A DNA stretch of 45,577 nucleotides, from NCBI GenBank assembly GCA_009886035.1, contig VFJN01000010.1:1-45577 (forward strand), read 5' to 3'. A program made the translations under genes and the position numbers. This DNA is from Actinomycetota bacterium. Its GTDB lineage: Bacteria; Actinomycetota; Acidimicrobiia; Acidimicrobiales; VFJN01. How positions within the stretch are numbered: position 1 is the stretch's first letter; the number at the start of each line of letters is the position of its first letter. Below are positions 4,233-39,700 of this stretch, one piece after another. A model generated the notes under the pieces. That model had not been told where the DNA came from, ran no database searches, and saw only the letters and a list, made by a program, of their open reading frames with translations.

Positions 4233-4394
4233 GTGCCTCAAGGACCGGAACTCATCATTATCTTGGTCGTTATTTTGGTGCTCTTCGGGGGCTCCAAGCT
4301 CCCGGGCCTCGCTCGTTCACTGGGTCAAGCCCAGAATGAGTTCAAAAAGGGCCTGAAATCCACCGACGACGAAACTGATCCGCCGGCGGCCTGA
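4233..4394 (+). CDS. tatA: Sec-independent protein translocase subunit TatA
   Basis: A short gene of 53 residues: PQGPELIIILVVILVLFGG, then SKLPGLARSLGQAQNEFKKGL and an acidic tail. This is the textbook TatA layout: a single N-terminal membrane helix, a glycine hinge, an amphipathic helix with the conserved F-K-K/G segment and a polar C-terminus. TatA oligomerises to let folded twin-arginine substrates cross the membrane. tatB and tatC are not in the window. GTG start as argued from the upstream hexamer. It is convergent with the second whiB, with a 16-nt palindrome between them. Confidence 0.9.
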   Translation: MPQGPELIIILVVILVLFGGSKLPGLARSLGQAQNEFKKGLKSTDDETDPPAA

Positions 4395-4410
4395 TCAGCC
4401 CACGGGCTGA
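4395..4410. terminator. Palindromic hairpin between convergent tatA and whiB
   Basis: TCAGCCC-AC-GGGCTGA, a 7-bp stem with a 2-nt centre, begins directly after the tatA stop and 4 bp before the end of the oppositely oriented whiB. The position suits a bidirectional terminator, though no T-tract follows on either strand. Confidence 0.45.
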
Positions 4411-4413
4411 GGG

Positions 4414-4671
4414 TTAGCCAACGGAAGCGGGTGCCGCGGCGCCCCTGCGCTTGAGGATGCGTCGTCGTTCTCGCTCTGAGCAGCCACCCCATACCCCGTG
4501 GTCGATGCGGTTGGCGAGGGCGTATTCCAGGCATTGGGTCTGCACAGGGCAGTCGAAGCAGATCTTGCGGGCCACGTCCACGCCAGAACCGTCGCGCGGG
4601 AAGAAGGTGGACGGGGGGAGGTTCGTGCAGAGGCCGGTGGCCATCCAGACCTCTTCGAGCGAGCGTTCCAT
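4414..4671 (-). CDS. WhiB family iron-sulfur transcriptional regulator (second copy)
   Basis: 85 residues with cluster ligands C15, C38-x2-C41-x5-C47, the GVWGG motif at 59-63 and a basic end (SERERRRILKRR). It differs strongly from the WhiB at 3084 outside the signature, so it is a separate paralogue and not a recent duplicate. The ATG at 4669-4671 follows an AAAGGTGA-type ribosome site. It is divergent from the HtrA gene with a 134-bp shared upstream region that contains a short palindrome. Expected to bind a [4Fe-4S] cluster and regulate transcription with the housekeeping sigma factor; targets unknown. Confidence 0.93.
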   Translation of the reverse strand: MERSLEEVWMATGLCTNLPPSTFFPRDGSGVDVARKICFDCPVQTQCLEYALANRIDHGVWGGCSERERRRILKRRGAAAPASVG

Positions 4672-4746
4672 GGGGTCACCTTTCGGGGGGGGGATCTCTT
4701 ATGTTGTACGGATCTACGGGGGCGTTGGTTCCCCCATCCTGAAATA

Positions 4747-4756
4747 TTTCCGGAAA
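4747..4756. promoter_or_regulatory. Palindrome in the whiB/htrA divergent promoter region
   Basis: TTTCCGGAAA is a perfect 10-bp palindrome in an AT-richer patch of the 134-bp region between the two divergent starts. Such a site could be an operator. No regulator can be named. Confidence 0.25.
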
Positions 4757-4805
4757 ATCCGCTGCCCGCGGTCACATCGGGCTGCTGTGAGGGAAAGATG
4801 GAGAG

Positions 4806-6176
4806 ATGGGAACCAACGACAGCCACCCGAACGAAGACGCCACCCCCACCCCGGATGCCGCGCCGCCACCCTGGTCGGCGCCGGAACCGCCGGAAGCCGC
4901 CGAGGGTGCGCTGACCACCCCGGATGCCGCGCCGCCACCCTGGTCGGCGCCGGAACCGCCGGAAGCCGCCGAGGGTGCGCTGACTACCCCGGATGCCGAG
5001 CCGCCGGTCCTGCCGGCCCCGCCGGCGTGGAGCCAACCCGACGACGAACTCGCCCCGGCCGGGCCCGCCGAGCCCTCGCCGCGGCGGCCCTTCAGCGCGG
5101 CGAAGGCAGCCGTGGTCGGTGCGCTGGTGGGCGGGCTCGTGGCCTCGGTGGTGGCGTTCGGCCTCGCCACCCTGGTGATCGACAACGACTCGGGCGCGAG
5201 CCCCACCGGCCCACCGGCCACGCCGATTGTCTCCGCGTCGGGGAGCCTCGACATCCAGGCGATCCTAGCCAAGGTGCAGCCCTCGGTCGTGACGATCGAG
5301 ACGAGTCGCACCACGTCCCAAGGTGTCTTTGATGGCGCCGGGTCGGGGGTCATCCTCAGTCCCACTGGCTTGGTGCTCACCAACGCCCACGTGATTGGCG
5401 GCCTCAGCGAGATCACCGTGGTGCTTCCCGATGGGACCAGCCATAAGGCATCGCTGGTGGGGGCTTCGCCCAGCGATGACCTGGCCCTGGTGCAGGTCGA
5501 AGGCGTGGACGGCCTCGTAGCCGCCGAACTGGGTTCCTCCGATGACCTTCGCGTGGGCGATGAGGTCATCGCCATCGGTAATGCGCTGAACCTGGGCGGC
5601 GATCCCACCGTCACCCGCGGCATCGTGTCGGCCAAGGACCGCGATCTGACCGCCCAGGGAGAGCAACTCTCGCAGTTGATCCAAACCGACGCCGCCATCA
5701 ACCCGGGCAATTCCGGTGGTCCCCTGGTGAACGCCGCCGGCCAGGTCGTGGGCATCAACACAGCCATCGTGGCCGATGCCCAGAACCTCGGATTTTCGAT
5801 TGCCATCGACCATGCCCGCCCCGTCATCGAGAACCTCAAGGCCGGCAAGGGATCGGTCAATCCCGATCAGGCCTTCCTCGGAGTTTCTTCGATCGAACTG
5901 GCCGATGTGCCCGCTGATGTGCAAAAGACCTTTGCGGTCACCGCTAAGAAGGGGGCGTTCGTCTCCGAGGTGGTGCCGGGCTCGGCGGCCGATGATGCCG
6001 GCCTGGCGGTCGGCGATGTGATCGTGGCCGTGGGCGGCCGCGACATCAACGAGGCCGCCCAGGTCCGTGACGAAATCCTCGACCGCCAGCCCGGGGATCG
6101 GGTGCAGATCAGGGTGATCAGAAAAGGTAAAGAGCAGACCCTGAAGGTCACCCTGGGTCGTCGCGGCGATACCTGA
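4806..6176 (+). CDS. HtrA/DegP-type serine protease with PDZ domain
   Basis: 456 residues. A Pro/Ala/Glu-rich cytoplasmic N-terminus (~1-95) is followed by one membrane helix (about 99-122: VVGALVGGLVASVVAFGLA), a chymotrypsin-fold protease domain and a C-terminal PDZ domain (about 355-450). The triad is intact: H195 in TNAHVIGG, D225 in SDDLALVQV and S303 in NPGNSGGPL. Topology predicts a protease anchored in the membrane and facing outside, working in envelope protein quality control; PDZ binds exposed C-termini. The N-terminal part contains a nearly perfect 23-residue tandem duplication. ATG 4806 is preceded by a purine-rich GGAAAGATGGAGAG. It is similar in build to the second trypsin-fold protein at 18320-19534, which has lost its His. 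Confidence 0.92.
   Translation: MGTNDSHPNEDATPTPDAAPPPWSAPEPPEAAEGALTTPDAAPPPWSAPEPPEAAEGALTTPDAEPPVLPAPPAWSQPDDELAPAGPAEPSPRRPFSAAKAAVVGALVGGLVASVVAFGLATLVIDNDSGASPTGPPATPIVSASGSLDIQAILAKVQPSVVTIETSRTTSQGVFDGAGSGVILSPTGLVLTNAHVIGGLSEITVVLPDGTSHKASLVGASPSDDLALVQVEGVDGLVAAELGSSDDLRVGDEVIAIGNALNLGGDPTVTRGIVSAKDRDLTAQGEQLSQLIQTDAAINPGNSGGPLVNAAGQVVGINTAIVADAQNLGFSIAIDHARPVIENLKAGKGSVNPDQAFLGVSSIELADVPADVQKTFAVTAKKGAFVSEVVPGSAADDAGLAVGDVIVAVGGRDINEAAQVRDEILDRQPGDRVQIRVIRKGKEQTLKVTLGRRGDT
4848..4985 (+). repeat. 69-bp tandem duplication inside htrA
   Basis: Two adjacent 69-bp units (4848-4916, 4917-4985) differ by about one base and encode 23 residues each, beginning TPDAAPPPWSAPEPPEAAEG. A third, diverged start (TPDAEPP) follows at 4986. 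The high identity implies a recent in-frame duplication in the proline-rich cytoplasmic segment. Confidence 0.9.
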
Positions 6177-20280: not shown

Positions 20281-21285
20281 ATGACGCGCGATCTCGCCAT
20301 CGATCTCGGGACGGCCAACACCCTCGTCTACGAGCGGGGGCGCGGGATCGTCCTGAATGAACCCACCGTGATTGCCCTGAATGAACACACCCAAGAAGTG
20401 CTGGCCATGGGGCAGGAGGCCTGGAAGATGATCGGCCGCACGCCGGGCCACATCGTGGCCGTGCGTCCGCTGCGTCAGGGGGCCATCACCGATTTTGAGA
20501 TCACGCAGCGGATGATTCGGCTCTTGCTGCATCGGGTGGGGGTGAGTCGTTTCAACCGCCCGCGGGTGGTGATCTGTGTGCCCTCGGCCATCACGGAGGT
20601 GGAACGACGAGCGGTGACCGAGGCGGCTCGCCGGGCGGGGGCGGCGGAGGCCCACCTCATCGAGCAGCCGATGGCGGCGGCGATCGGTGCGGGCATGCCG
20701 ATTCACGAGCCGGTGGCCAACATGGTGGTGGATGTGGGGGGTGGAACCTCGGAGACGGCGCTCATCTCCCTCGGGGGGGTCGTGGCCCTCAAGGCGGTGC
20801 GGGTGGGCAGCTTCGACATCGACGCCGCTATCACTCAGTTCATTCGCCGCGAGTATGGGATCGCCGTGGGGGAGCGCACGGCCGAGGAGATCAAGGTGGC
20901 CATCGGTTCGGCGTGGCCGGTACGCGACGAAGTGAACGCAGAGGTCCGAGGTCGGGATCTCACGAGCGGTTTGCCCAAGACGATCATCCTGTCCCCGGAA
21001 GAGGTGCGATGGGCTATCGAGGAGCCGGTATCGGCCATCGTGGAATCGGTGGTGTCCTGCCTCGGTATGAGCCCCCCTGATCTGGCCCAAGACCTGATTC
21101 TCGATGGTCTGAAGTTGGTTGGAGGGGGCGGAATGTTGGCGGGATTGGATCAGCGTCTGGCCAACGAGACCGAGGTGCCGGTGCATCTCGTAGATGCGCC
21201 GCTGGAGTGCGTGGTGCTCGGTGCGGGCAGTTGTATCGAGTCCTACGACCTCCTCAAAGACATGTTCATGGGGAGCAATCGATAG
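20281..21285 (+). CDS. mreB: Rod-shape determining actin homologue MreB/Mbl
   Basis: 334 residues, full length for MreB. Phosphate-1 motif DLGTANTLVY, connect-1 region EQPMAAAIGAG, phosphate-2 VVDVGGGTSETALISLGG, and adenosine motif LVGGGGMLAGLD are all present. MreB filaments under the membrane guide lateral wall synthesis. The gene is unusual in lacking mreC, mreD, rodA or a penicillin-binding protein next to it and lying behind moaE. The N-terminus lacks the usual membrane-binding extension, beginning directly at MTRDLAIDLG. Confidence 0.95.
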   Translation: MTRDLAIDLGTANTLVYERGRGIVLNEPTVIALNEHTQEVLAMGQEAWKMIGRTPGHIVAVRPLRQGAITDFEITQRMIRLLLHRVGVSRFNRPRVVICVPSAITEVERRAVTEAARRAGAAEAHLIEQPMAAAIGAGMPIHEPVANMVVDVGGGTSETALISLGGVVALKAVRVGSFDIDAAITQFIRREYGIAVGERTAEEIKVAIGSAWPVRDEVNAEVRGRDLTSGLPKTIILSPEEVRWAIEEPVSAIVESVVSCLGMSPPDLAQDLILDGLKLVGGGGMLAGLDQRLANETEVPVHLVDAPLECVVLGAGSCIESYDLLKDMFMGSNR

Positions 21286-22542: not shown

Positions 22543-23134
22543 GGTCCTCGGCGGCTTGCCGAACCTGCCAATCCCGGTCGTGGCGTGCGTGTTCGAGGGC
22601 GGCGTCCACGGCCTCGCCCTCGAAGGACGCCAAGGCCAGCACGGCCCGCCGGCGCACCGTGGCTTTGTCGCCCGTGGCCGTCAGTATGGCCGCCAGCCCG
22701 GCGTGATCGCCGATGGCCCCGAGGGCGGCGACCGCGGCTTCCCGTACCAGCGAATCATCGTGAGTGGTGGTGAGCAGGGCCAGCACGGCCACGATCCCCG
22801 CCTCGGGGGGTTGGCGCTCCCCGCTGGCCCAGGCCGCCACCTCGACCACGGTGGCATCGGCTCCGCTCAGGGTGTGGAGGAGCGACGGTGCTTGATCCCC
22901 GGGGAGCAGGGCCACTGCCTCACACGCCCGGCGAGCCACGGTGGCTTCCGTGTCCCCGAGGGCGGCTTCGAGATCGTCGCGGTGCAGGGCGCCCATGCGC
23001 TCGAGGGCGCCGATAGCGCTGGAGCGCACGCCGGGGTTGGGATGGATTAGGCCCGGACGGGCGGTGGCTTCGTCGCCGTCGTGTCCGGCGAGGACGACGG
23101 CGCGGCGAGCGTCGACGGCGGCGGGATCGGTCAT
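22532..23134 (-). CDS. HEAT-repeat protein
   Basis: 200 residues made of roughly six ~30-residue alpha-helical repeats with the alternating pattern seen in HEAT/PBS-lyase-like proteins, for example [37 protein letters not shown] and [17 protein letters not shown], ending [14 protein letters not shown]. These form a scaffold for protein contacts; no catalytic residues are apparent. ATG 23132-23134 overlaps the TGA of a small upstream frame in an ATGA, hinting at coupling. Role unknown; adjacency to bioB/bsaP may be accidental since it is on the other strand. Confidence 0.8.
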
Positions 23135-23295
23135 AACGGCTCGTGGCTGGGCGTTGGGATGGGGACCAGCTCGGCGGGGCCGCCGATGCCCGCGAGTTCG
23201 CTGCCCACCGCCGCCCGGCGTGCCCCGGGGCGGGCGCGTCGCCTCCCGGGAGGGCGGCGGGGATCCCCGCCGAGCGCCGCTCCGGTGTCCTTCAG
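23131..23295 (-). CDS. Possible 54-residue coupled micro-protein with CTG start
   Basis: A minus-strand frame begins CTG-AAG-GAC (KDTGAALGGDP...) exactly 8 nt after a perfect AGGAGG (plus-strand 23304-23309) and ends in a TGA that overlaps the HEAT gene start as ATGA. Both signals are those of a translated, coupled gene. The product is Arg/Pro-rich in the middle (RRPPGRRRARPGARR) and ends [14 protein letters not shown]. There is no ATG/GTG/TTG in a suitable place. It could instead be a leader that only serves to couple translation, or a chance frame. Occupies most of the 219-bp gap before the PDZ-S16 gene. Confidence 0.3.
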   Translation of the reverse strand: MKDTGAALGGDPRRPPGRRRARPGARRAAVGSELAGIGGPAELVPIPTPSHEPL

Positions 23296-23353
23296 GGTGA
23301 CTTCCTCCTGCCCGCGACTTGAGATGCGACCCAACAAGGACCACGCTGGACCG

Positions 23354-24466
23354 ATGTTACCGTCGGAAAACATTGTGGCTGAAGAGAGTGCGGAAGACGG
23401 TGAGCCGCGGCGGCTTGGACGCGGTTGGTGGATTGCGGGCTCGGTGATGGCTGTGGTGGTGGCCGTGGTGGTGGCCGCCGCCTTGATCCCGGTGCCCTAC
23501 GTGGCGCTGGGTCCGGGGTCGGTCTGGCCGCTGGACAGTCAGATCACGGTGGTGGATGCCAACAGTTTCCCGTCCGACCAACCGGTTGCCTTCACGACGG
23601 TGAGCGTGGGGTCCACATCGGCGCTGGAAGCGGCACTGGGCTGGTGGGACAAGGATGTTGACGTATTACCGGAGGAAGCCGTGCGGGGCGATCGGTCGGC
23701 CAGCGCGAACCGTCGCTACAACGCCGAGCTCATGGACACCTCGATCTCTACTGCCATCGCGGTGGCGGAGGGGTATCTCGGCGAGGACGTGAGGATCACC
23801 ACCTCGGGAGCCATCGTGCGGGAGATCCAGGCGGATTCACCAGCCGCCGCGGTGTTGGAACTCGATGACGTGATCGTGACGGTGGATGACCAGGCGGTGG
23901 ATGACATTGGTGAGCTCGGGACCTTGTTGCAGGTGGGGGGACCGGGAGCCTCCCATGCGTTGGGGGTGGAGCGACCGGCCGGCAGCACTACCCGGATCAA
24001 GGTTCAGGTCGTCACAGTGGCGGCGGAAGATAAGCCAGAGCGCGCCGTGATCGGGATTGTTCCCGAGGACCGAATCGTGGATTTCGATTTTCCCATTGAT
24101 GTCACAATCGACTCCGACACGGTGGGGGGACCTTCCGCCGGCCTGGCGTTCACGCTGGCGGTGATCGACATCCTGACCCCGGGCCAACTGACCGGGGGGA
24201 CGCGGGTGGCGGTGACCGGCACCATCGCCCTGGACGGCACGGTGGGGCCGGTGGGTGGTGGTTCGCAGAAGGCGACGGCGGTGCGACAGGCGGGCTACGA
24301 CGTGTTCCTCGTGCCGACCAGTGAGTTCGAACTGGCGCAGGCCGCCGTGGGTGATGACGTGCAGGTGATCGCGGTGGACACCCTGGAGGAGGCCCTGGCA
24401 GCCCTTATCGACCGGGGGGGAACTCCAGCGGAGTTGCTGCCGCCAGCGGCTGGCCGCGGCGGCTGA
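23354..24466 (+). CDS. Membrane-anchored PDZ-Lon (S16) protease, YlbL-like
   Basis: About 370 residues: short cytoplasmic N-terminus, one membrane helix (about 31-51: GSVMAVVVAVVVAAALIPV), an extracytoplasmic region, a PDZ domain (about 150-225) and a Lon-type S16 protease domain. The Ser-Lys dyad is visible as S261 in GGPSAGLAF and K306 in GGGSQKATAV. There is no ATPase domain, as in the YlbL group of secreted/anchored proteases. Expected to process envelope proteins. The start is uncertain: ATG 23354 has no ribosome site, ATG 23324 and GTG 23375 are alternatives; all keep the TM helix. Overlaps on the opposite strand with nothing well supported. Confidence 0.88.
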   Translation: MLPSENIVAEESAEDGEPRRLGRGWWIAGSVMAVVVAVVVAAALIPVPYVALGPGSVWPLDSQITVVDANSFPSDQPVAFTTVSVGSTSALEAALGWWDKDVDVLPEEAVRGDRSASANRRYNAELMDTSISTAIAVAEGYLGEDVRITTSGAIVREIQADSPAAAVLELDDVIVTVDDQAVDDIGELGTLLQVGGPGASHALGVERPAGSTTRIKVQVVTVAAEDKPERAVIGIVPEDRIVDFDFPIDVTIDSDTVGGPSAGLAFTLAVIDILTPGQLTGGTRVAVTGTIALDGTVGPVGGGSQKATAVRQAGYDVFLVPTSEFELAQAAVGDDVQVIAVDTLEEALAALIDRGGTPAELLPPAAGRGG

Positions 24467-24515: not shown

Positions 24516-26534
24516 ATGGCCGAATCGATGGATAGCACCGGTATTGCCCGCAAGGATTTTGGCGTCGGACGCCGCGGCTATGAACAGCAGCAAGTGCGCG
24601 CCTTCTTGCATGAGGTGTCTTCGTTGGTCGAGCGCCTCCAGCGGGAGGCCGTGGCCCTGGAGGAGCGGGCCCACCGGGCCGAGGCTCGGCTGGGGATGTC
24701 GGAACACCCGGATGATTCGATGCTTCTCGAGATGTTGGGCGAGGAGACCACCCGGGTGCTGTCCTCGGCTCGCGACGCGGCGGCGGAGATCCGTGCGAAG
24801 GCCGAGGCGGCGGCCGAACGCATCATAGAGACCGCCACCAGCGAGGCGGCCTCCACAAGGTCCGAGGCGGTACGCGAGGCCGATCGGCGCCTGGCCGAGG
24901 CTCTGGCGGAGGGTGAGTCGATGCGCACATCGGCCCGCGTGGAAGTCGATCGTTTGAGCGCCGAAGCCACCGACGCCACCCGTCATCTCCGGGAGGAGTT
25001 GGCGGCGCAGGCCCAGGCTGCTCGCGATGAGCTTGATGCCGACCAGCAACGGGCTCTGGCGGAGTCCGTGGCGTTGGCTGATGCCGGTCGGATCGAGGGC
25101 CGCCAGATGGTGGCGGAAGCGCAGGTGGTGCGGGAGCAAGTGCTTCGTGATTTGGCGGCCCGGCGCAAGAAGGCCCGACAGCAGGTCGAGAAACTCAATG
25201 CCGGGCGGGAGCGATTGCTAGAGGCGTACGACGTGGTGCGGCGCACCATGGATGAGGCCACCAACGAACTGGTGGTGTCACTTTCCGATGCTCGGATGGC
25301 GGGGGAGAGTGCCACTCGACTGTTAGACGACGAGCCCGAACCCACCATCGAGCAACTCGAGGAGGAGGTGCGCAGCGCCGTATTCCGCGACCCGAACTTG
25401 GCGGCGGCCAAGGTGTCGGAGTTGGTGGAGGACATGGCAGACGATTCCCAGGACGCAGGCCCACTATCGGGTGAGGTTCCGGTAGTAGCAGTGGCGGTGG
25501 CGGAATCGACTCCGGAGGGGGAGGGTCCGTCGGCGACGGCGGTGCAGTCTGATGGTGGTTCCCCCGAGGCTGCCGACCTTGCTGAGCGGCGCGGCCGCAA
25601 GGGTCGACGCCGTAAAACCGGAGCCTTCGATGGTTTGCCCTCGGGAGCGTTGATCCGGGTGGAGCCACCCTCTGACAGCGAGGGGATTCGGATTCTCGAC
25701 GAGCCCGCCGAGGCGGAGGAATCGGCGGCGGCACCGCTCGCGGTGGTCGAGGTCGTTGCCGCGGTGGAGGATCTTCCGGCCGCTACCGATGTGTTCGCCC
25801 GCCTCCGGGCCGATCAGAGCGCGGAGACGGAGACGGAACCGGCGGCGGTGGTGGAGACGGAGGTTGCCGAGGATGCGGAACCGGCGGCGGTTGAAGATCC
25901 CGCCGGTGTGCCCTTCCGGGAGCGCGAGGCGGCGATCGCGTCGATCGATAAAGAACTCAGTCGCCGGCTCAAGCGCACGCTGGCCGATGAGCAAAACGAG
26001 GTGCTCGACCGTTTGCGGCGGGTGAAGCCCAAGGGGGTGGATGATCTTCTCCCCCCGGCCACCGATCACGCGGCTCGGTGGGCCGAGGCGGCGGCGGCGG
26101 CCCTGTTGGACGCGGCTCGCGCCGGGGCGAATGGCGCGTCGCCGCCCTCGGTTGATGATCTGGTTGATGATCTGGCGATGGATCTCACGGCTCCGCTGCG
26201 AGATCGGATCGAACGCAGTTTTGCGGCCTCGGATGGGAACCTCGAGGACGTGGCCGACCGTCTGCGGGCGGTGTACCGGGAGTGGAAGGGCCAGCGTCTG
26301 AGCGAGGCATCGAGCCATTTCCTCACCGCCGCTTACGGCCGGGGCTCGTTCGAGCAGTTACTGCCCGACGAGGCGGTGCGCTGGGTGCTGGACCCAGCAG
26401 CGGCTCCGTGCCCAGACTGCGATGACAACGTTTTGGCCGGGGCGATCGGCAAGGGGGAGGAGTTCCCTACGGGGCATCGATGCGCTCCGGCTCATCCCGG
26501 ATGCCGCTGTCTGGTGGCCGCGGCCAACCCCTGA
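24516..26534 (+). CDS. DivIVA-like coiled-coil protein with MuF-like cysteine C-terminus
   Basis: 672 residues. Residues ~10-40 (RKDFGVGRRGYEQQQVRAFL) match the DivIVA/Wag31 N-terminal membrane-curvature motif. From ~30 to 270 it is a long coiled coil rich in Ala/Glu/Arg, then an acidic low-complexity linker (~300-455). A helical domain follows (~460-625), ending with C632-PD-C635, ...GKGEEFPTGHRC and H660-PG-C663-R-C665. This Cys/His pattern resembles the end of phage Mu gpF-like (minor head) domains. DivIVA proteins mark poles and septa; the tail suggests an extra metal-binding or head-morphogenesis-derived module. It lies 24 bp before the UPF0182 gene. Confidence 0.72.
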   Translation: MAESMDSTGIARKDFGVGRRGYEQQQVRAFLHEVSSLVERLQREAVALEERAHRAEARLGMSEHPDDSMLLEMLGEETTRVLSSARDAAAEIRAKAEAAAERIIETATSEAASTRSEAVREADRRLAEALAEGESMRTSARVEVDRLSAEATDATRHLREELAAQAQAARDELDADQQRALAESVALADAGRIEGRQMVAEAQVVREQVLRDLAARRKKARQQVEKLNAGRERLLEAYDVVRRTMDEATNELVVSLSDARMAGESATRLLDDEPEPTIEQLEEEVRSAVFRDPNLAAAKVSELVEDMADDSQDAGPLSGEVPVVAVAVAESTPEGEGPSATAVQSDGGSPEAADLAERRGRKGRRRKTGAFDGLPSGALIRVEPPSDSEGIRILDEPAEAEESAAAPLAVVEVVAAVEDLPAATDVFARLRADQSAETETEPAAVVETEVAEDAEPAAVEDPAGVPFREREAAIASIDKELSRRLKRTLADEQNEVLDRLRRVKPKGVDDLLPPATDHAARWAEAAAAALLDAARAGANGASPPSVDDLVDDLAMDLTAPLRDRIERSFAASDGNLEDVADRLRAVYREWKGQRLSEASSHFLTAAYGRGSFEQLLPDEAVRWVLDPAAAPCPDCDDNVLAGAIGKGEEFPTGHRCAPAHPGCRCLVAAANP

Positions 26535-26558: not shown

Positions 26559-29501
26559 ATGCGTGCCCCCAGTGACATGCCCCCCCGGGCGCCGCGATCG
26601 GCTGGTCCGGGTCGTGGCCGTACGTGGCTCGTCCTCGGAGGAGTCGCTCTTTTTTTCCTCGTGATGTCCCTTCGCGGCATCGCGGGCTTCTACACCGACT
26701 TCCTCTGGTTTGATTCTCTGGGTAAGGCCGGGGTGTGGCGGGGGGTGGTGGGATCGAAGGTGGTCCTGTCGCTGCTCTTCACCTCTGTGTTCTTCGTGGT
26801 CATGTGGGTGAACTTGGTGATCGCCGACCGGGTGGCCCCTCGGTTCCGACCGCCGGGGCCCGAAGATGAGTTCATCGAGCGCTACCAGGAAATCATCGGT
26901 GGTCATAACGGGGGGATTCGGTTAGGTATCGCCGGGTTCTTGGCGCTCATCGCCGGCACCGGAGTGGGGAGTGAATGGGACGCGTGGCTGCTGTTCATCA
27001 ACGGGGGGAAGTTTGGGGTGGCCGACGCGCAGTTCGGCACGGACGTGGGCTTCTATGTGTTCAAGTTGCCGTTCCTCAGTTTCGTGACGGGGTGGCTTTT
27101 CGCCACGTTTTTGATCGTGTTCATCGTGACCACGGTGGCGCACTACCTCAACGGCGGCATTCGCATGAGTGCTGTGCACAACCGGGTCACGCCGCAGGTG
27201 AAAGTCCATCTGTCGGTGCTGCTGGCGCTGCTGGCGTTGGTGAAGGCGGGGGGCTATTGGCTCCAGCGTTATGACCTCACGGTGTCGTCGAGAGGTTTCG
27301 TGGGCGGAGCCGGTTACACCGATGTGAACGCGCAACTTCCGGCGATCAATTTGCTCTTGCTGATCTCGATAGTGAGCGTGTTGCTGTTCCTGGTCAACAT
27401 CTTCCGCCGAGGCTGGACGTTGCCGGTGGTGGGCATCGGACTGTGGGCGCTGGTGGCAGTAGTGGCGGGGGCGATCTACCCGCAATTCATTCAGCGGTTC
27501 ACCGTGACGCCGAACGAGCCGGAGCGTGAGCGCCCCTTCATCGAGCGAAACATCGAAGCCACTCGCGAGGCGCTGGGCCTCGACGCCGATGTTGTTCAGG
27601 TGGATCCTTACCAACTCGAGACCGACAAGAACAAGATCGACCTGGAGGCCAATGAGGCTTCTATTCGAAACGTCCGGATTTGGGATCCGTCGGAAATCGT
27701 GCTCGGTCGCACCTTTCCTCAGCTGCAGCGCGTGCGCGATTACTACCGAGTGAACGACGTGGACGTGGACCGTTACGAACTCGGTGGCGTGCCCACACAG
27801 GTGGTGTTGTCGGCTCGTGATCTCAATAGCGCCGGGGTGCCTCAGTCGTCTTGGGCGGCTCGACACCTCACTTACACGCACGGGTATGGGGCCATTGTGG
27901 CTCCGGCCAACGCGGTTGGGTCCGGTGGTGAGCCCAACTTTGTGGGGAAGGACATCCCTTACGTTTCGTCTTATCCCGAACTCACCCTCACCCGCCCCGA
28001 GCTGTATTTCGGTGAGAATCTCGACTCCTACGTAGTGGTGGGTTCCCGCCAGCGGGAACTCAGTTACGAGGACGACAGCGAGACTCAGTTCACTAGCTAT
28101 GAAGGGGCTGACGGGGTTCAGATCGACAATTTCGCCAAGCGGGCTGCGTTTGCTGTTCGCTTCGGTGACGTCAATCCGCTGATCTCCGATCAGATCACCA
28201 AGAAGTCGAAGATTTTGTACATCCGGGATGTCAAAGAGCGGGCGGCGGCTCTGGCGCCGTTCCTCAAATTCGACGCCGACCCCTACCCGGTGATCGACGA
28301 CGGCAAGATGAAGTGGATTCTGGACGCCTATACGACGACTGATCGTTATCCCTACGCCGAGCAGGCCGACACGTCGCAGCTCAGCGCGGGCAGCGGGCTC
28401 GATACGAACTTCAACTACGTCCGCAATTCGGTGAAGGCAGTGGTGGATGCCTACGAAGGCACGGTGGACTTCTACGTGATGCCGGTAGACGACCCGATCA
28501 TCGATGCCTACCGTCGGGCCTTCCCAGATCTGTTCACCGACTTCGAGGAGATGCCGGAGGGGCTGCGGGCCCATCTGCGCTACCCGGAGGACCTGTTTCG
28601 GGTGCAGACCACCATGTGGGCCAGTTACCACGTCACGGATGCCGACGGCTTCTACCAGGGCAACGACTATTGGGATGTGGCGCGTGATCCCGGTACCACC
28701 GGGACCGTTGGCGGCACGCAAACCACCGATAGCGCCGGCCAGGTAACCACCACCCGGGATGCCCGCATCGAGCCGTACTACCTCTTCACGCAACTCCCGG
28801 GTACGGAGCAGCCGTCGTTCGTTCTCGTACGGCCCTTCGTGCCTATTTCCCGAGGCGACGACAACCAATTGCTCACGGCGTTGATGGTGGGTCTGAGCGA
28901 CGGCGACAGTTACGGCAAGTTGCAGGTTTATGTGATGCCGCGCGGCGATCTTCCCAAGGGGCCAGCCCTCGTGCAGGGGGAGATCCAAAGCGACAGCGAT
29001 GTGTCGCAGACCCAGACGCTGCTCGATGGGGGTGGCTCCAGCGTGCAGTTCGGTTCCCTCACGGCCATTCCGATCGATGGCGGTTTGCTCTATGTCCGAC
29101 CGTTCTATGTGACCTCGGACCAGACCGAGGTGCCCGCTCTGCGGAAGGTGATCGTGTATTTCGGGGGGGAAGTGGTGATTCGCGACAGCCTTGATGAGGG
29201 GTTGGCGGCGATCTTCGGTGAGGCTGGGTCTACGCCTGTCGACCCCGGTGGTGTGCCGGCTGCGCCCCCGGGGGTGGGGACGTTGACCGAGCGGGTAGCG
29301 GCACTGTTGGTGGAGGCCGACGCACTTTTCACCGAGGCCGACGAGGCCTTGCGCAACGATGGTGATCTGGGTGGCTATGCGGATCTCAACGCCGAAGCGC
29401 GCCAGAAGATCGCCCAGGCCGAGAAACTCCTGAAGGAAGAGCTCGGCCAGCCCACTGATCCCGGGGCCACCACCACCACCGAGCCGTCGGCCTCGACGTA
29501 G
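26559..29501 (+). CDS. UPF0182 family large membrane protein
   Basis: 980 residues, normal for UPF0182. Seven membrane helices lie in the first ~320 residues (first one TWLVLGGVALFFLVMSLRGI), with family motifs TDFLWFDSLG and AQFGTDVGFYVFKLPF. A ~550-residue extracytoplasmic domain follows, with PFIERNIEATREALGLD and LTYTHGYGAIVAPANAV, then a Pro-rich linker and a charged helical tail rich in Ala/Glu. The biochemical role of the family is not established; it is widespread in actinobacteria and cyanobacteria. ATG 26559 is supported by the hexamer 7 nt upstream. Confidence 0.95.
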   Translation: MRAPSDMPPRAPRSAGPGRGRTWLVLGGVALFFLVMSLRGIAGFYTDFLWFDSLGKAGVWRGVVGSKVVLSLLFTSVFFVVMWVNLVIADRVAPRFRPPGPEDEFIERYQEIIGGHNGGIRLGIAGFLALIAGTGVGSEWDAWLLFINGGKFGVADAQFGTDVGFYVFKLPFLSFVTGWLFATFLIVFIVTTVAHYLNGGIRMSAVHNRVTPQVKVHLSVLLALLALVKAGGYWLQRYDLTVSSRGFVGGAGYTDVNAQLPAINLLLLISIVSVLLFLVNIFRRGWTLPVVGIGLWALVAVVAGAIYPQFIQRFTVTPNEPERERPFIERNIEATREALGLDADVVQVDPYQLETDKNKIDLEANEASIRNVRIWDPSEIVLGRTFPQLQRVRDYYRVNDVDVDRYELGGVPTQVVLSARDLNSAGVPQSSWAARHLTYTHGYGAIVAPANAVGSGGEPNFVGKDIPYVSSYPELTLTRPELYFGENLDSYVVVGSRQRELSYEDDSETQFTSYEGADGVQIDNFAKRAAFAVRFGDVNPLISDQITKKSKILYIRDVKERAAALAPFLKFDADPYPVIDDGKMKWILDAYTTTDRYPYAEQADTSQLSAGSGLDTNFNYVRNSVKAVVDAYEGTVDFYVMPVDDPIIDAYRRAFPDLFTDFEEMPEGLRAHLRYPEDLFRVQTTMWASYHVTDADGFYQGNDYWDVARDPGTTGTVGGTQTTDSAGQVTTTRDARIEPYYLFTQLPGTEQPSFVLVRPFVPISRGDDNQLLTALMVGLSDGDSYGKLQVYVMPRGDLPKGPALVQGEIQSDSDVSQTQTLLDGGGSSVQFGSLTAIPIDGGLLYVRPFYVTSDQTEVPALRKVIVYFGGEVVIRDSLDEGLAAIFGEAGSTPVDPGGVPAAPPGVGTLTERVAALLVEADALFTEADEALRNDGDLGGYADLNAEARQKIAQAEKLLKEELGQPTDPGATTTTEPSAST

Positions 29502-30706: not shown

Positions 30707-33700
30707 ATGGCAAACAAGGGCGAAAAGAGAAACGTTGTGAGTTTGAGGGCCTATTCAACAGTCGGGTCATCGGAGGCGGGGCGTCGAGCCCGTGGGGAGA
30801 CCCATGGGAAGGCGGGGACCTGGCCACGTTGTTTGTCGGCCGGCCTGTTGACCTTGTCGCTGTTGTTGGTTGCCGGTTTTGGCGCTTCGGGTTCCTCCGG
30901 CTCGGCTGCTGACGGTCCATTGGGTGCGGCGTTGGGGCGGGCACGGGAGGAGGGTTCGTATCGCTTTCGTAGCGAGGTGACACAGGTGGCGTCGCCGTTG
31001 ACGTCGGTGGTGGACGCGGGCCGGTCCGCATCCACCCAGTCGTTGGTGTTGGAAGGTGTCACCGACATCGATGCATCGGCAACGGAGCTGTCGGTGTCGG
31101 CTGACGGTGGCGGTCAGCCGTTGGGGTTGCGGATCGTAGACGGTGTGTCGTTTAAGCGCGATGGCGGCGGGTCGTGGGTCAAGGGGGCCGACCTAGGGGC
31201 TGACCAGGGTGCGCTCCCTGGCGACCTCATGGGCTACTTGGGTGCGGCGCGCGATGTGGTTGATCAAGGTGTGCAATCCAGTGACGGGCGCAAGTTGACG
31301 CGGTACGCGTTCGGGATCGATCCCAAGGCGTTCGCCTCGCTGGCTGCTGAGCAGTCGCAGCAGGCCGGTCGGCCGGCGTCGGCCGCCCCGGTTGCCATGA
31401 CGGGTTCGGGTGAGTTGTGGGTCGATGGCGACGGGTTGCCGGTGCGGCAGCAGTTGTCGTTGACATTCCCCGGCGGGAACGGCGTGGGTACGACGTCGAC
31501 GCAGATCTCGGTTGAATTCTCGGAGTTCGGCACCGCGAAAGTGCCGGGAGTGGCTCGTGCGTCGTCGTCATCGTGGCGTGTCGACGTGCTCGGCGGCGTT
31601 CGGCTCGAGGTGCTGCTGGCGCTGTCGTTGGTGATGTTGTTGGTGGTCGGGTTCGCGTGTTCACAGTGGCTCGGTTGGTCGATGGGATCGACGCGGTCGG
31701 CGTTGTCGATGCGGTCGGTGTCGCTGGTGGTCGTCGTTGCGCTGTTGGCCTCGTTGATGGTGTCCGAGACCGCCGACGCGGCTGCGCCCGCAAGGTCGTC
31801 GATGGTCACGGGTGCGTCGATGCGCAAACCGGTGGTGGCCCACTCGCGCGCTCCGTCTTTGGTCGATCCGCACCTCGACCGGCTGGCGTCGGCCGCTTTG
31901 CCGTCGTTGACGGGGCTGCAGGTCGGCGATATCACGACCGACACTGATGGTGACGGGCTGACGAACTTTGTAGAGCAGAGCATCGGCACCGATCCGGAGG
32001 ACGCTGACACTGATGGTGATGATATCGACGACAAAATCGAGGTTGATGGGTTCACGGTGGCGTGCCCAACGACTACGGGTGTGGCGGTGCGCTGGTTCGG
32101 TGACCCGTTGGTGCCGGACAGCAACGATGACGGGGTCGTTGACGGCTCGGAGTGGGGTGTCGACTCCGACGGGGATTGCACACCGGACGTGTTCGACGAC
32201 GACAACGATGGCGACAAGGTGCCCGACCGGGTCGACACGGCACCGTCAACGGTGCTCGGCAAGAGCATTGCGTTCGACGAAAAAACACCGTTGCATTTGG
32301 CGATCAAAGGCCTCGACGCCGTCAACAATCGGGCGACGTTCGTCGATTTCCAGGTGCTACCCACCGACGCCAGCCAACTGAAGTACGCGCCGCGCCCTGA
32401 CGGCACGCAGAGCCGTCTTAACTGGCCTGCCGACACCGGTGGCCAGATTCTGGACTTGAACAACACTGTTGATGACCAAGACGTCACGTTGATACCAATG
32501 TTGGAAATCATCGTACCGAAGGATCACGTGCTGCCATCGGCCGCCGATCTCAACGCAAACAATATTAAAGTGGACGACGCTGCGAAGGACGGCAGCCGAA
32601 CGGTGTATGTGCCGTTGACGGTCGTGCGTGATCCCGACAGTGGCGTCGATGTTGCCCTGGGTGGGCGCATGTTGTACTCCTCGAACGCAGATTGGAGTGC
32701 CGCGCAGGACGTGAAGTTGTTGTGGCTGGTACAGGTGAAGAACGACGTGCCATGCGATGCCGGTGCTGCTGACGCTGTGGCCAAGGGGTGCAAAAAAGTC
32801 GGTGACTCCGCCGTCGGTTACATCTACAATTCGCCGCAGATCATGCAGGCGTATTACGAGCCCTGGACATTGACCGGGTTGACCGTGAACGAAGAGCATG
32901 GCACGGACATGGCGGTCATCTACGAAGACCCCGCAGCAGATAACGACGTCGACAGCCACGTGCCGACGTGGGCTCTCGAGCAGGTGCTGACCGAGCGGAT
33001 GTTGTCGGCGACGCCGGGCACCGACACCTTCGAAATCACGACCGACAACATCGCCGGGTTGATCGATCGCGACCTCAACGGGGGGTCGACGCTGTATGGC
33101 CTTCCGAACATCTTTCAAGTCAAGGTCGACTCCTACCGAACCATGGACGAGGCCGTCTTCACGACGGCGAGCGATGTGCTCCCCGACCTGGTCGCCCGTG
33201 TCTTCCCGCCTAACTCGGTCGCCCCGCCGTTCATGCCGTTGGTCACCACGGCGTACTCGTCGTCGTCGCGCAGCTTCGGTCTGGACGCCGGCAGCGGGTA
33301 CGTCGATGTCGCAGCAAATGCAGTAACGATGTCTTTCACGCCGACGGACAGCGCACTCCAGGGCATTCCGACCCAGACGGTCGGTGCTGTCAAGTGGAAT
33401 CCGTATTGCCTAGCCGGGGCCCAGGCCGCTTGGGTGCCGTGCGGCGCTGACGAGGTAGTCGCCGAAGTCGACCGCCAGTCCGCCGGCGAACCCATCTACG
33501 ATCCCGACTTCTCCCCTGGCGATTACCCCGGCGGTCCAAACGTCGTCCCGCCCGACGTTCTCATCGACGGACCGGCTCCGGACCTCGCCGAAGGCCAGCG
33601 ACAGTTGGCTCTCGTGCACGCGGTATCGATGATGACCGGGCGTTCCGTCACGACCCAGATCACCACGACCGATAACACGGTCACCGCGCTGCACGAGTCA

Positions 33701-36700
33701 TACGCGACGGGCGAGCGTCTTAGTCGCGCCGGCGCCAAAATCGGCTTGTTAGGTGGCGAACAGGGTTACAAGGCTTTCGCAGGTTACCGGTATCGGGAAA
33801 GCCTGAAACTGCTTGGCGCGGAGCTGAGCAGACGAGCACAAAATACCAGCCTCAAAAAGTTCATCGGCGCCCGGTACGCTCTTGAGAGCTTCTCGGCCCC
33901 GCAGAAGCTGGTCGACTCGATCGCCGATAAAACAGTGATCAACCGACTCGTCGGCAGCCTGCGGACGATGTCAACCGGGCGAAAGGTCGGGGTCGCAGGT
34001 GGCGGCATTCTCGCAGTGCTGGGCCTCGGGGTGACCGTCGCGCTCGTCGACGCGCAAGACGACCAAGCACCCAATGAAACCTCCATCGCCAGTTCGACCG
34101 TCAAGACCGTACTCCTCGGATCTAGCATTTTCTTCGCGGCGCAGGCAGCCTCGGAGGTGATCGCGGTCGCAAAGGCGCTCAACGGGGTCAATCTCACGAG
34201 GAACCTGCTTGGTGCATCGACTGCCAAGTACCTGGGCCTGTCAATGAAAGGGGCCGCGGTCAGTGCTGTCGTCTTCGCCACCATCACCTGGGGCTTTTTC
34301 ATCTATCAGATGACGAACGCCGGAGTCACGGCGTTCAGCTCGGAGTTCAACGCGGTCCTCGCCGAGACGATTGCGACAACGTTGTATATCGCGTTGCTAA
34401 CGGTCTTGTCGCTCACCGTGGTCGGCAACTTGGTCGTCGCGCTGATTTTTGTGGTGGACGCGATCATCGGCGAATTCTGTGAGCTCTCCGACGGCAGCGA
34501 TTGCGCCACCATTTCCTCCGCGGTCACCGATGCGATCACGATCGTGTTGTACGGGACCTCGCCAATGATCGATGTCAACGCATCGGATCTGGTGTCGGCG
34601 AAGGCACCGAAGATCACCTTGAGTAACCCGGATCTCGGTTTCGTGGCCGGCAATGCAGCATCGATTTCGGTGCCGGTGGAGACCACGGTCACCCATAAAA
34701 AGCCCGATGCGTGGCAGATGGCGTTCTACACGTGGATGTACTCGCGATCTAACATCCAATCAGCCGACTTCGAATACGGGATAAGCGCGCCGGGCGAAGT
34801 GACGCAACCCGCTGCCGTGGGACCGGGAACGTGGGACAGCGTCACCGCCCAGGGCAGCTGGTTGGGCAAGGACCTGTACCGGGCGACCCGGAGCGAGACC
34901 GTCGAGATCGCTGCGGCCGACGTAGTCACCTTCGACACCGCCGGGTTGAACCAAACGTTCCCGTACACGCTGAACTCGGCCTACACGGTGCCGACGTTTG
35001 AGTGCTGGACGGTGCCGCTACCCCCACCGATTCCGTTCGTGCCCGTGTGCTACTCCCGCACGCTCGACGACACTACGTCGAGCGACTTGACACCGTTGGT
35101 GTACGACATCCTGCCGAAAACATTGTCGGCGTTGTTGACCACGACCACCGCGCCCGACGGCGCGGTGAGGTTGGCGTGGGATCCGGCGTTCGAGCCGATG
35201 ACCGACGTCGATGGCGACGGGCTGTTGGCGGCACGAGACGGCGGGTTGGATCCCGACGACACCAAGGTTGACACCGACGGCGACGGGCTGACCGACCGGC
35301 GCGAGCTCGAACTTCGTGCCGCCGGCACTGCGGTCGTGCCTGGATCGGCAGATGCCGACGGTGACGGACTCACCGATCTCGACGAGGTTGCGTACGGCAC
35401 CGACCCGTCGGTGGCCGACACCGACAACGACGGCTTGAGCGACGGCGTCGAAGCCCGCCACGCCGACAGCGCCGGGGGTGTGAGCCGTGTCGCCGGTGGT
35501 TGGGACATAACCATCGCCAGCCGCACGGTACGCGTGTACTCCGATCCGTTGCTTAGCGACTCCGACTTCGACGGCATCAGCGATCAGGGCGAGAAGGAAC
35601 TTGCGGCGCTCACCGATCCGGCTGATCGGGTCGACGAAGCGTTGCGCCCATATCACCCGGGCGTTGTGAACACGCCGCCGATCGGCATCACGCTCGACGT
35701 CCCGGGGGCGTCGGGGTTCGTCGCAGCCGGCGATACGGTCGACGTCGCAGCCGAGGTGACCGCATCGGTCGCGCTCGCCCCGAGCGTGCTCGATGTCACC
35801 GGGAGTGACGGGCAGGTGATGCCACCAGCGCTGCTCGATTTCGACCCCGGCACCTTCGCCGGAACCCAGGTCCGCCAGCAGACCATCCCGTTCACGGTGC
35901 CCGGCGGCGTCCCGTCGGTCACCGTCAATGCCGGTGTGCGGGCCTGGTTGCCCACGACCGGCCAACCAGTGACCTCACTGGCTACACGAACCGGAACTGC
36001 TCAGCTCCCTGTCAACTTTTTCTCCGGACTGTTCCCGCGCTCTGCGGACTCGACCAACCAGTTCGTGATCGGCGCCACGCTCCCCGGCACGATCGGCCCG
36101 AACGGCCCGAACGGCCCAGTCGTGCGGATGAATCCCCTCGCCACCGGTGAGCGATCAACGCTCGGAGGCGACGCCTATCCCGGAGCTGCTGTGTCATCGA
36201 GTGCGTGCAATGACGAGGGGACGTGTACGGCCCTCTGGATCGCTCCGAGCAGGCGAGAGGTCCTTGCTCGGACCGTTTCGGCATCCGGACAGATCATCAG
36301 AAACTGGACGATCGACGCCAACAGTGAAGACTCATTCTCCGGCGTGTCGGTAGCCAGCGACGGGCAAGGTTTCGAAGCCGCCTGGCAGGGCAATGGCACG
36401 AGCTACTTCGGTCTGGAGAACCCATCGATCTTGCCGTTCTCCGCGCCGCAGGTGCTGTGGGCGGGTGACCGCTATGTCGTGATCGGCCGGGACTATCCCA
36501 GTTACGACAATCCGTTTCCGTCCGCACTCTTGGCATACGACACGTCGACCAACAAGCAGATCGTGCTCGGCCAGTTCGACTTGCCATTTTCGACTCGCTT
36601 CGCGTACGACCCAGCAGCCGACGCGTTGCTGGTCGTTGGGCACGCCCTGGGTCGGACATTCGATGGGGTGGGCCCTATCGACGGTGTGCTGTGGTCTGAT

Positions 36701-39700
36701 TTTTCCACGCGATTGAACTGCTCAGTGGGTTGCGCACAGCCGACCAAGGCGAGGTTGTTCGATATCGACCGCTTCAGGGACGACTACTACTGGGGTTCCG
36801 CCATCCCGGACGTGTCGTTCGACCCGGTGAGCAAGCAGTGGGTCGTGGGTGTCACAACGCTCTACCAGTTCCCTTTGAGGCGTACTCCTACCGAAGTGCG
36901 GTACTTCGGGCGGACTGATCTGGCCCGCGGTGCGACCTGGACAGGAGATAGCACCCCTTTGAACGAGTTCCGGAATGTGGCGTGCCCTGCGCCGTCGGCG
37001 TTACCGGTCGTCGAGCTGGGCTTCGAAGAACTGCCAGGAGCGACGCGATTCGCCGACAGCGCGCGCCCAGGGCTCGAGGCGGGCGCCGCAGGTGGCTACA
37101 CAGCACCGCAGGCCGGTGCAGCGGGTGCTCCAGACGCGACCAGATCACATCTCGCGGCGCGGTTCGCCAACACATCAGATCGGTTGACGGTGGACACCCC
37201 TTCGCCGTTCCGCGACCCGACTCCGGTGTCGCTGGCGTTCTGGGTTCGAGTCGATCCGTCGACATCGCCTGCACCGTTCGAGATGGCCTGGGACTCGGCC
37301 AGAACGTTGCGGATCCGCCCGGACACCGGTGTGGTGAAGTGGCAGTGGGGGTTGAAGTCGGTACAGAGCTCGAAGACGCTCAACGACGGCAATTGGCACT
37401 TCGTCGTCGCTACACATTCTCCGACGACGCTTCGCTTGTCGGTCGACGGCATCGAGACGACGACATCGGCAGTCGGCTCGGAGACGTTCGAAGGTGTCCC
37501 TGAAAGCATGGATGTTTCAGGTGGCGGGTCACCCGTGACGGTGGACCAGCTGCAGTTCTACAACGCGGCCCTCGGCACCAAAGCGATCGAAGACCTGACC
37601 AACGGTGCAACACCGCAGTGCATGATGCTCATGCGGAACCCGGATCAAAGCATCGGTCAGTCGTTCTGGACCACCATTGCGTCCGTAACCTCCGATCCGC
37701 GTGGCGGGTTCCTGTCGGCGTCCGCGTCGCTGAAGCTGCGAATCGACAATGCTGCTCCGACATCGACCGTGGTGGTGCCTTCAGCACCGATCGGGGCCGG
37801 CACCTACCTGCTGGCCGGCACAGCCAACGATGGGCTCGACGGTTCCGGTGTCGCACAGGTCGACGTGCAAGTCGACGGCGGCGCCTGGGTATCAGCCGAA
37901 GGGGCCGAGAGCTGGGTGTTGCCACTCGACCTGAGTGACGGCAGCCATCAGATCCGTACGCGTGTCACCGACGCCGTCGGCAACAGCGCCACGTTTGGGC
38001 CCACGGTGTTGCAGGTCGACCTGACCGCACCGTCGGTGGCCCTCGTTGCGCTGGACCCAGCGGTGAGGCCGGTCACCGACGTCACGACCGGTGAGATGAC
38101 GGTGACCCTGTCGGGCACGGCATCGGATTCGGTGAGCGGGCTCGCAGGCGGCCGCGTCGAGGTGCGCGTCGTTCCGGCGGATGCCGGCGATGTGCCTGCG
38201 GCGTGGCAACAGGCAACCGTGGCCGGTGGCCTGTGGTCGATCGACTACGTGGTATCGCCGACCCCTCGAGATATCTCGGGCGGCTACTCGGTGAGCGTCC
38301 GTGCGGTGGACTCGGTTGGTAACGCCACCGGCGACCAGGCAGCGTCAGCGGCGCTGGTGCTGGATTCGGTGGCACCGTCGGCATCGCTGTCGGCGGCGAA
38401 GCTGACGTTGGGTGTTCTGGCCGGCGGGACAGTACTGACAGGTGACGTGTCCGACGACGGTGTTGGTGTGGCATCGCTTGAGGTGTCATTCACGCCGTTG
38501 GAGTCAGTGGTCGATCCGTCGTTCGATCAGGCATCTCGGGTGTGGCTGCCCGCTCAGCTTGTGTCATCGTCCTGGTCGCTGGCGGTGCCGTCTGATGTCG
38601 AGGGGTACTTCCAGATCGATCTGCGTTTGCGTGACTCCGTGGGAAATGAGCGGATCACTGATCGGGCCTGGAGCGGCATCGTCGACACGCGGGCGCCGCG
38701 ACTCAGCCTGACCGTCACACCGACGGGCAAATCCCGCCCGAAAGCACAGCGTTACGAGATCTCCTACGCCTGTTCTGCGAAGGATCTGTTCCTGGACGCG
38801 AACGCGTTCACGTGCCCGGGAAGTACGGCGGGACCGCTGGTGCGCGGCTTCCTTGATCCGTCGCCGCTGCGCGAAGCGCTCATGATGCTGTTCCCCGATC
38901 AGCCGATCCTGACCGATCTGTCGAGCACGTACGCGCTGTGGGAAAGCAGCGAGAGCCCGGATGTCACAATCAGCGCCTGCGACCTATTCGGGAACTGCGC
39001 CACCAACGCTGCGCCCGTCAGCGCGGCGGTCAGCAAGATGAGCGCACAGTCCCTTTTGCCAGCAGGACAACTCGCAACGCTTGCGGCTGCGCCTGTCGCT
39101 GTAGTCGTCTCTCCGACGGCTGGCCAGAATGTTGCGGCCAGCGGCTCGGTCGAGGTGGGGGTCGCTGTCGAGTCGGACTCGTCGATCAAGTCCGTAAAGT
39201 TGTATCTCGACGGTGCTCTCGTGACGACGCGTAACTTCTCAAGTGGCGTGGCAAAACTTCATGAGGAGGTCATGCCCGCTGCGTTGGCCGCCGGTGGACT
39301 TCACACGGTATCGGTGTCGGTCGAGGACTGGGGTGGTGCCACGGCAACATCGGGAAGCACCGAGTTCTTCGCCGACGTCAAGGCACCGACTGTCACGCTG
39401 GTCTCGTCGCCGATCACCCTTGGGCGCACTTGGGCTGTCGGGACCGATTTCCTTCGGTTCTCGGGAACGGTCGTCGATGACGGAACCATCGCCGCGGTGC
39501 AGTTTAAGGTCGGTGACGGCCGCTGGTCCGACGTGTCCTTCGGGGAAGGTCTCTGGAGTACTGCCGTGCAGGTGCCGGGCGCCGATGGCTCGACACTTGT
39601 GTACACCGTCCGTGCGATCGATCTCGCCGGTCGGATCGCCGCTGTCGGGGGCTCCGCCAGTGTTGACCTGGCCCCGTCGGGGGCCACGCCGTACGCGCGA

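Follow-up and report, generated by a model that had tools for sequence, protein, structure and literature searches.

DivIVA proteins are described as polar scaffolds of actinobacteria in two reports (PMC8872289, PMC12097788). MuF proteins, represented by SPP1 gp7 and Mu gpF (PF04233), belong to the phage head. For SPP1, passages of PMC6316719 describe how the MuF protein gp7 is targeted to the procapsid, namely through strong binding by the portal protein gp6. MuF domains can also be part of longer proteins. In phages, portal-MuF fusions are known (PHROG 2662), and sections of the 2017 survey on MuF polymorphic toxins (PMC5576092) present MuF joined to a toxin in one chain. MuF3 and MuF4 are recorded there as having joined the MuF superfamily through profile-profile comparison.

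The gene analyzed here (positions 24516..26534, plus strand, ATG start) lies in a window, the whole stretch of DNA that was analysed, of 45,577 nucleotides and encodes a protein of 672 aa that combines features of these systems. Like the DivIVA/Wag31 scaffolds (PF05103), it carries an N-terminal DivIVA domain above cut-off and a long coiled coil. It differs from them by a disordered linker of about 150 residues and a folded C-terminal domain of about 210 residues, and its gene is distinct from the DivIVA gene beside ftsZ and sepF. With the phage MuF superfamily it shares the predicted fold, the helix order and the W...CxxC...PPxHxxCxC end. However, the cellular domain is not located in a phage, has no adjoining portal gene, stays below the Pfam cut-off, forms one chromosomal lineage and shows extra conservation at K486, Q493-N494, R501 and R588. 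Among phage families, the domain is matched best by the C-terminal part of the portal-MuF fusions (PHROG 2662; L096), whereas the DivIVA domain and coiled coil take the place of the portal part. MuF is joined to another domain in one chain, as in the MuF polymorphic toxins, but the toxin is placed C-terminal to MuF in the sections of PMC5576092 concerned with it, while here MuF forms the very C-terminus. No toxin domain was found in the DivIVA-MuF protein by scans with Pfam, PHROG and NCBIfam. Full-text literature searches, with most subscription journals outside their coverage, listed no paper on a DivIVA-MuF fusion and none combining Acidimicrobiia with DivIVA. The surprising part is that a domain of the phage head is a fixed part of a cell scaffold.

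Architecture of the fusion protein

The protein is built, in this order, of the DivIVA domain, a coiled coil of about 200 residues, a disordered linker and a compact C-terminal domain. The DivIVA domain covers aa 10-117 (24543..24866, plus strand; PF05103, 5.6e-13, 49.4 bits with a cut-off of 28). In the whole-protein AlphaFold2 model, which was calculated from a 25-row alignment and has a mean pLDDT of 75, the long helix or coiled coil corresponds to aa 67-266 (24714..25313, plus strand), comprising helices 67-73 and 75-266, and is followed by short helices up to residue 304. The DivIVA-type region with coiled coil that a sequence-only reading had proposed for the N-terminus is thereby confirmed, by the Pfam match above cut-off and by helix 75-266 of the model.

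The linker (aa 305-458; 25428..25889, plus strand) has pLDDT values below 50 at 305-420 and 439-458. Its sole predicted helix, residues 423-436, shows a higher pLDDT than its surroundings and coincides with the peptide DVFARLRAD at about aa 421-434 (25776..25817, plus strand), a helical island that was delimited by motif count and by the AlphaFold2 helix. Of 82 distinct long members, 50 have the family form of this peptide, VDxLFARLRA, which was not found in the members from other classes. A search for the exact FARLRA codon pattern in ten genomes gave four matches, all at the place of the fusion gene (G000, G002, G041, G089); the exact pattern misses variants, and a control pattern gave five matches in the same ten genomes. 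LFARLRA as a general motif of the organism was considered and not seen, as all pattern matches fall at the fusion gene. A relative without MuF (L195) retains the linker peptide as ALFARIRAD. LFARLRA looks like a family-specific binding peptide.

The MuF-derived domain extends over aa 462-672 (25899..26531, plus strand) and was delimited by AlphaFold2, BFVD, PHROG 2662 and hhalign against phage MuF. Near its end, translation and conservation define the Cys/His motif C632-x2-C635 ... H660-x2-C663-x-C665 (26409..26510, plus strand). These residues are exactly those of the CPDC...HPGCRC pattern noted earlier. The last two cysteines, C663 and C665, are invariant in all 83 unique cellular domains covering the region. 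Of the 83 domains, 75 have the first Cys, 77 have the His and 71 have the second Cys, which is replaced by Ala in 11 domains and by Gly in one. A metal site at the motif is likely, but since the second Cys is not universal, a strict four-Cys/His zinc site is not present in all members. Outside the motif, the cellular rows are conserved at K486 (86/86), Q493 (78/86), N494 (79/86), R501 (82/86) and R588 (79/86). R588 is found in 2 of 18 aligned phage rows, and for helix 1 of the domain the comparison between cell and phage is thin, with merely two to three phage rows aligned. In two DivIVA proteins from the same chromosomal slot, L049 (G027) and L050 (G057), the MuF match is confined to the helical part, reaching query position 141 and 131 of 212, respectively; here the Cys/His end seems to be lost or strongly changed.

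Relationship of the C-terminal domain to phage MuF

The sequence-only reading had tentatively associated the C-terminus with phage Mu gpF-like proteins. In the window protein, Pfam Phage_Mu_F (PF04233) reaches 15.1 bits and stays below its cut-off of 29.6, as it does in all 12 genomes searched with the model (15.1-17.2 bits versus 29.6), and NCBIfam TIGR01641 is below cut-off as well. Therefore, these two matches alone do not settle the identity of the C-terminus. A clearer result was obtained with PHROG 2662, a phage portal protein family, which the window domain as a single sequence matches at 5.9e-9 over portal positions 490-705 of 717; weaker matches are to head-morphogenesis families. Within A1, an alignment of 51 cellular relatives of the C-terminal domain, 47 members match PHROG 2662 at E <= 0.01 (best 7.5e-15) and ten match Phage_Mu_F (best 5.9e-6).

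Profile-profile comparison with hhalign aligned the cellular domain to 23 phage MuF sequences, i.e. 26 phage rows after removal of three near-copies, with a probability of 99.6% over 200 columns. After the motif part had been cut from both sides, 84.5% over 142 columns was retained in the same order. Control comparisons (two reversed, eight shuffled) gave at most 0.5%, and at most 0.2% in the cut versions; the E-values of hhalign hold for one comparison. The phage set was gathered with family patterns, one of them the Cys/His motif; this way of selecting benefits the share of the motif in the 99.6%, and the share of the upstream part much less. At the level of single sequences, ten members shortened by the last ~57 aa lost their match to the phage portal family (0.083 for the window, no portal match for the other nine), so the motif accounts for a large share of the signal obtained from single sequences. 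As the profile likeness persists upstream of it, the whole C-terminal domain, and not just the Cys/His end, is related to phage MuF by sequence comparison; it is diverged, and the Cys/His end is its best-kept part.

Three phage relatives were scanned (L066, L070, L096), and all of them exceed the Phage_Mu_F cut-off. In the case of L096, which derives from viral contigs, MuF is joined to a portal domain that is below its own cut-off. In phages, tblastn hit a single record when the window domain was the query and 15 when the family consensus was used, all of them short and weak; no match was obtained in plasmids. Matches to FdhE_N, Nucleolin_bd, TetR_C and similar families were set aside, being weak and restricted to one or two members. 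No unrelated zinc-binding family was matched convincingly, and a PDB sequence search with the family profile gave weak unrelated matches, the best being a ZorA helix (E 0.003).

Structure prediction points in the same direction. The AlphaFold2 model of aa 462-672, built from A1, has a pLDDT of 96.2 and a pTM of 0.91 and yielded 27 matches at E <= 0.001 in BFVD, a collection of predicted viral structures. Among the 50 BFVD matches listed, 28 are named. Portal, head/capsid-morphogenesis, capsid-maturation, minor capsid or MuF-like proteins account for 25 of these, and a zeta-toxin-domain protein, an ADP-ribosyltransferase and an uncharacterised protein make up the remainder. The matches span nearly the whole domain model at identities of 9-19% and an rmsd of about 5 and above, as expected for distant relatives. 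Foldseek and VIA-align searches of the PDB gave helical-bundle look-alikes only and no MuF relative among the solved structures, which does not count against the relationship. By comparison of the predicted model with predicted viral structures, a MuF fold is assigned to the domain. The proposed likeness to Mu gpF is therefore supported by PHROG 2662, by profile-profile comparison (99.6%, and 84.5% without the motif part) and by structure comparison. An unrelated zinc-binding family or an absence of phage relatives had been named as outcomes that would speak against it; neither was seen, and the phage relatives are clear.

Distribution and chromosomal context

Using the single window domain as query, 95 of 118 genomes of the order showed a match, so that the feature is far beyond chance. 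In the class, 118 of 198 genomes matched, with overlapping samples of order and class; the 80 genomes without a match result from a search with one sequence, which misses diverged copies. The A1 profile matched 42 of 296 genomes of the phylum, 27 in the class of the window and 15 outside. In the classes to which two of the outside genomes belong, 8 of 24 and 16 of 66 genomes match. Thus, the taxonomic distribution asked for at the outset is that of a fusion which is common in the order and extends to at least two further classes of the phylum. Ten members, picked partly because the pairwise search had missed their N-terminus, were scanned with Pfam, and DivIVA was found in all ten, above cut-off in eight.

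The gene is preceded by a gene for a membrane PDZ-Lon (S16) protease (23081..24466, plus strand) which resembles SepM, and YlbL in its domain make-up of transmembrane segment, PDZ and Lon (Pfam Lon_C and PDZ_2; NCBIfam NF041438 at 113.8 bits, below the cut-off of 200). Directly downstream, a UPF0182 membrane protein is encoded (26559..29501, plus strand; PF03699, 885 bits). We fetched 36 longer stretches, in 35 of which the domain is present by profile. UPF0182 is next on the same strand in all 35 loci, the largest ORF-to-ORF gap being 1056 bases. The PDZ-Lon gene lies at most 800 bases upstream in 18 of these loci and anywhere in the stretch in 27. No portal gene adjoins the fusion gene; its neighbours are the PDZ-Lon protease and UPF0182, unlike phage MuF genes, which lie directly downstream of the portal gene.

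Further upstream in the window, MreB (20281-21285, plus strand; above the NCBIfam cut-off) is encoded beside MoaE and BioB, and it recurs upstream of the PDZ-Lon, DivIVA-MuF and UPF0182 genes in many relatives. On the other side, an ORF of 3495 aa (30707-41194, plus strand) shows weak OmpL47-type, CglD-like and MtsD-like (thrombospondin type 3) matches. Its product is probably a very large surface or secreted protein.

UPF0182 was also looked for in 20 genomes, 19 without a domain match and G128 with a weak one. It was present in 17, and 15 of these loci were fetched. In five of them (L183, L188, L189, L194, L197) the PDZ-Lon gene stands directly before UPF0182 and the fusion gene is cleanly absent. 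The slot of L195 holds a DivIVA protein of 333 aa without MuF, and the linker peptide that is still there suggests that MuF was lost from it. In L191, a DivIVA protein of 229 aa precedes UPF0182, and the remaining eight loci carry other genes in the slot. UPF0182 and the protease also occur in genomes that lack the fusion gene, which speaks against an obligate complex. Part of the class lacks the gene, and in some relatives its absence is clean; the lineage can therefore do without it. In G128, the block of PDZ-Lon, DivIVA-MuF-like and UPF0182 genes occurs twice (L146, L147), both times with a diverged MuF end.

Evolution and selection

A tree was calculated from 86 cellular and 26 phage rows. 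A branch with a support of 98/84, recovered in 97% of the bootstrap trees, has all cellular copies on one side, and the 15 rows that come from other classes group together (98/93); the bootstrap is not fully settled, the root is arbitrary and the phage rows were sampled in good part by way of the motif. When the window is compared with two close relatives, dN/dS amounts to 0.08-0.09 for the DivIVA domain, 0.18 for the coiled coil, 0.30-0.35 for the linker, the highest value, and 0.13-0.17 for the MuF part. The low value of the latter means that the domain is maintained by selection; it is under purifying selection.

The fusion gene is the sole match of its genome to the Pfam MuF model. A separate DivIVA gene, identified by Pfam, belongs to the division cluster, where it comes after ftsZ and a SepF-like gene, both of which were named by eye from their translations. 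Outside the window, on contig C66 of G000 (4291-5115), a portal-like gene matches PHROG 2662 over positions 110-383, and the MuF end is not in the match. G000 probably carries prophage sequence elsewhere. The fusion is an old, vertically inherited DivIVA-MuF gene and no prophage relic. What the sequence-only reading overlooked is that the module is such a gene in a fixed chromosomal slot and not the curiosity of a single genome.

Proposed function and alternative explanations

Overall, the best explanation, to which we give a probability of about 60%, is a single ancient capture of MuF by the second DivIVA protein, with the domain now acting as a docking module for a host partner. The donor would have been a phage portal or minor head protein, taken up once and long ago, and the transfer from phage to cell is, taken by itself, very likely. 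The DivIVA domain and coiled coil would assemble on curved membrane at poles or septa; such a location is probable, considering the DivIVA domain. The long flexible linker bears the short conserved peptide LFARLRA, and the MuF domain at the far end would dock a host partner, as phage MuF docks on the portal. MuF is read as a docking module because, in the part of PMC6316719 cited above, binding by gp6 targets gp7 to the procapsid; we rate this role of the MuF end as plausible, at somewhat under an even chance. The likeliest place of action would be the envelope complex encoded next door, with the PDZ-Lon protease and UPF0182. Passages of PMC6051672 report that YlbL helps to remove a division inhibitor in Bacillus. 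To name UPF0182 or the protease as partner or client is a rather doubtful proposal. Bolder still, and unlikely, is a picture in which an early actinobacterium put the captured portal-docking domain to work as the active end of its second polar scaffold. With an interface of its own (the conserved LKRxLxDEQN helix, YREWK and the linker peptide LFARLRA), the protein would organise an as yet undescribed polar or septal envelope machine together with UPF0182 and PDZ-Lon, and the same surface may catch phage portals at the pole.

Other functions and origins have to be considered. One alternative is that the MuF end holds DNA or the chromosome at the pole. Phage MuF proteins are located at the site of DNA exit from the head, and the pole would be provided by DivIVA; in its favour, DivIVA-family scaffolds anchor chromosomes in other bacteria. 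For gp7 of SPP1, support of the start of infection is mentioned in passages of PMC6316719. However, no DNA-binding family was matched convincingly in the Pfam, PHROG and NCBIfam scans and the neighbours are envelope rather than segregation genes, so we regard a tether as unlikely. Less probable again is an anti-phage device, in which a polar MuF decoy competes for the portals of incoming or assembling phages. The relationship of the domain to a portal-binding module would fit this, as would a mycobacteriophage protein that inactivates Wag31 (DivIVA) against superinfection, going by the title of a reference in PMC10884400. On the other hand, PADLOC gave 0 families at E <= 0.01 with four queries, the gene occupies a fixed slot among housekeeping genes, and it is under purifying selection and not fast-changing.

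As to origin, the deep single clade of the cell copies could be taken to mean that the domain was cellular first and was later taken up by phages, although the root of the tree serves for drawing only. Phage MuF is far more diverse, with 26 rows on long branches against one cellular clade in one phylum, the sole phylum searched, and passages of PMC5576092 assign 96% of bacterial muf genes to prophages or their remnants; this direction is therefore very improbable. Slightly less weight still falls to convergence, i.e. a helical bundle with a generic zinc-knuckle end. The PDB searches, which yield helical bundles only, and the large share of the motif in the single-sequence signal would agree with it, but with the motif removed the profiles still align in the same order (84.5% over 142 columns, cut-version controls at most 0.2%), and the MuF-type proteins matched in BFVD cover almost the full length of the model. 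A prophage remnant or an assembly artefact running on from the DivIVA gene might be suspected from the portal-like gene on another contig of G000. This is refuted by the distribution, since independent genomes from three classes or more share both the fusion and its slot; the neighbours are cellular genes and dN/dS is well below 1, leaving it practically no probability.

Meaning of the finding

For MuF, a domain for which no solved structure was found, the fusion offers a soluble model. It also opens a way to study UPF0182, a large and conserved family of membrane proteins; one literature search listed no work directed at its function. The DivIVA-MuF gene gives a rare and clear-cut example in which a component of the phage head seems to have become part of the architecture of the cell, kept across an order and beyond.
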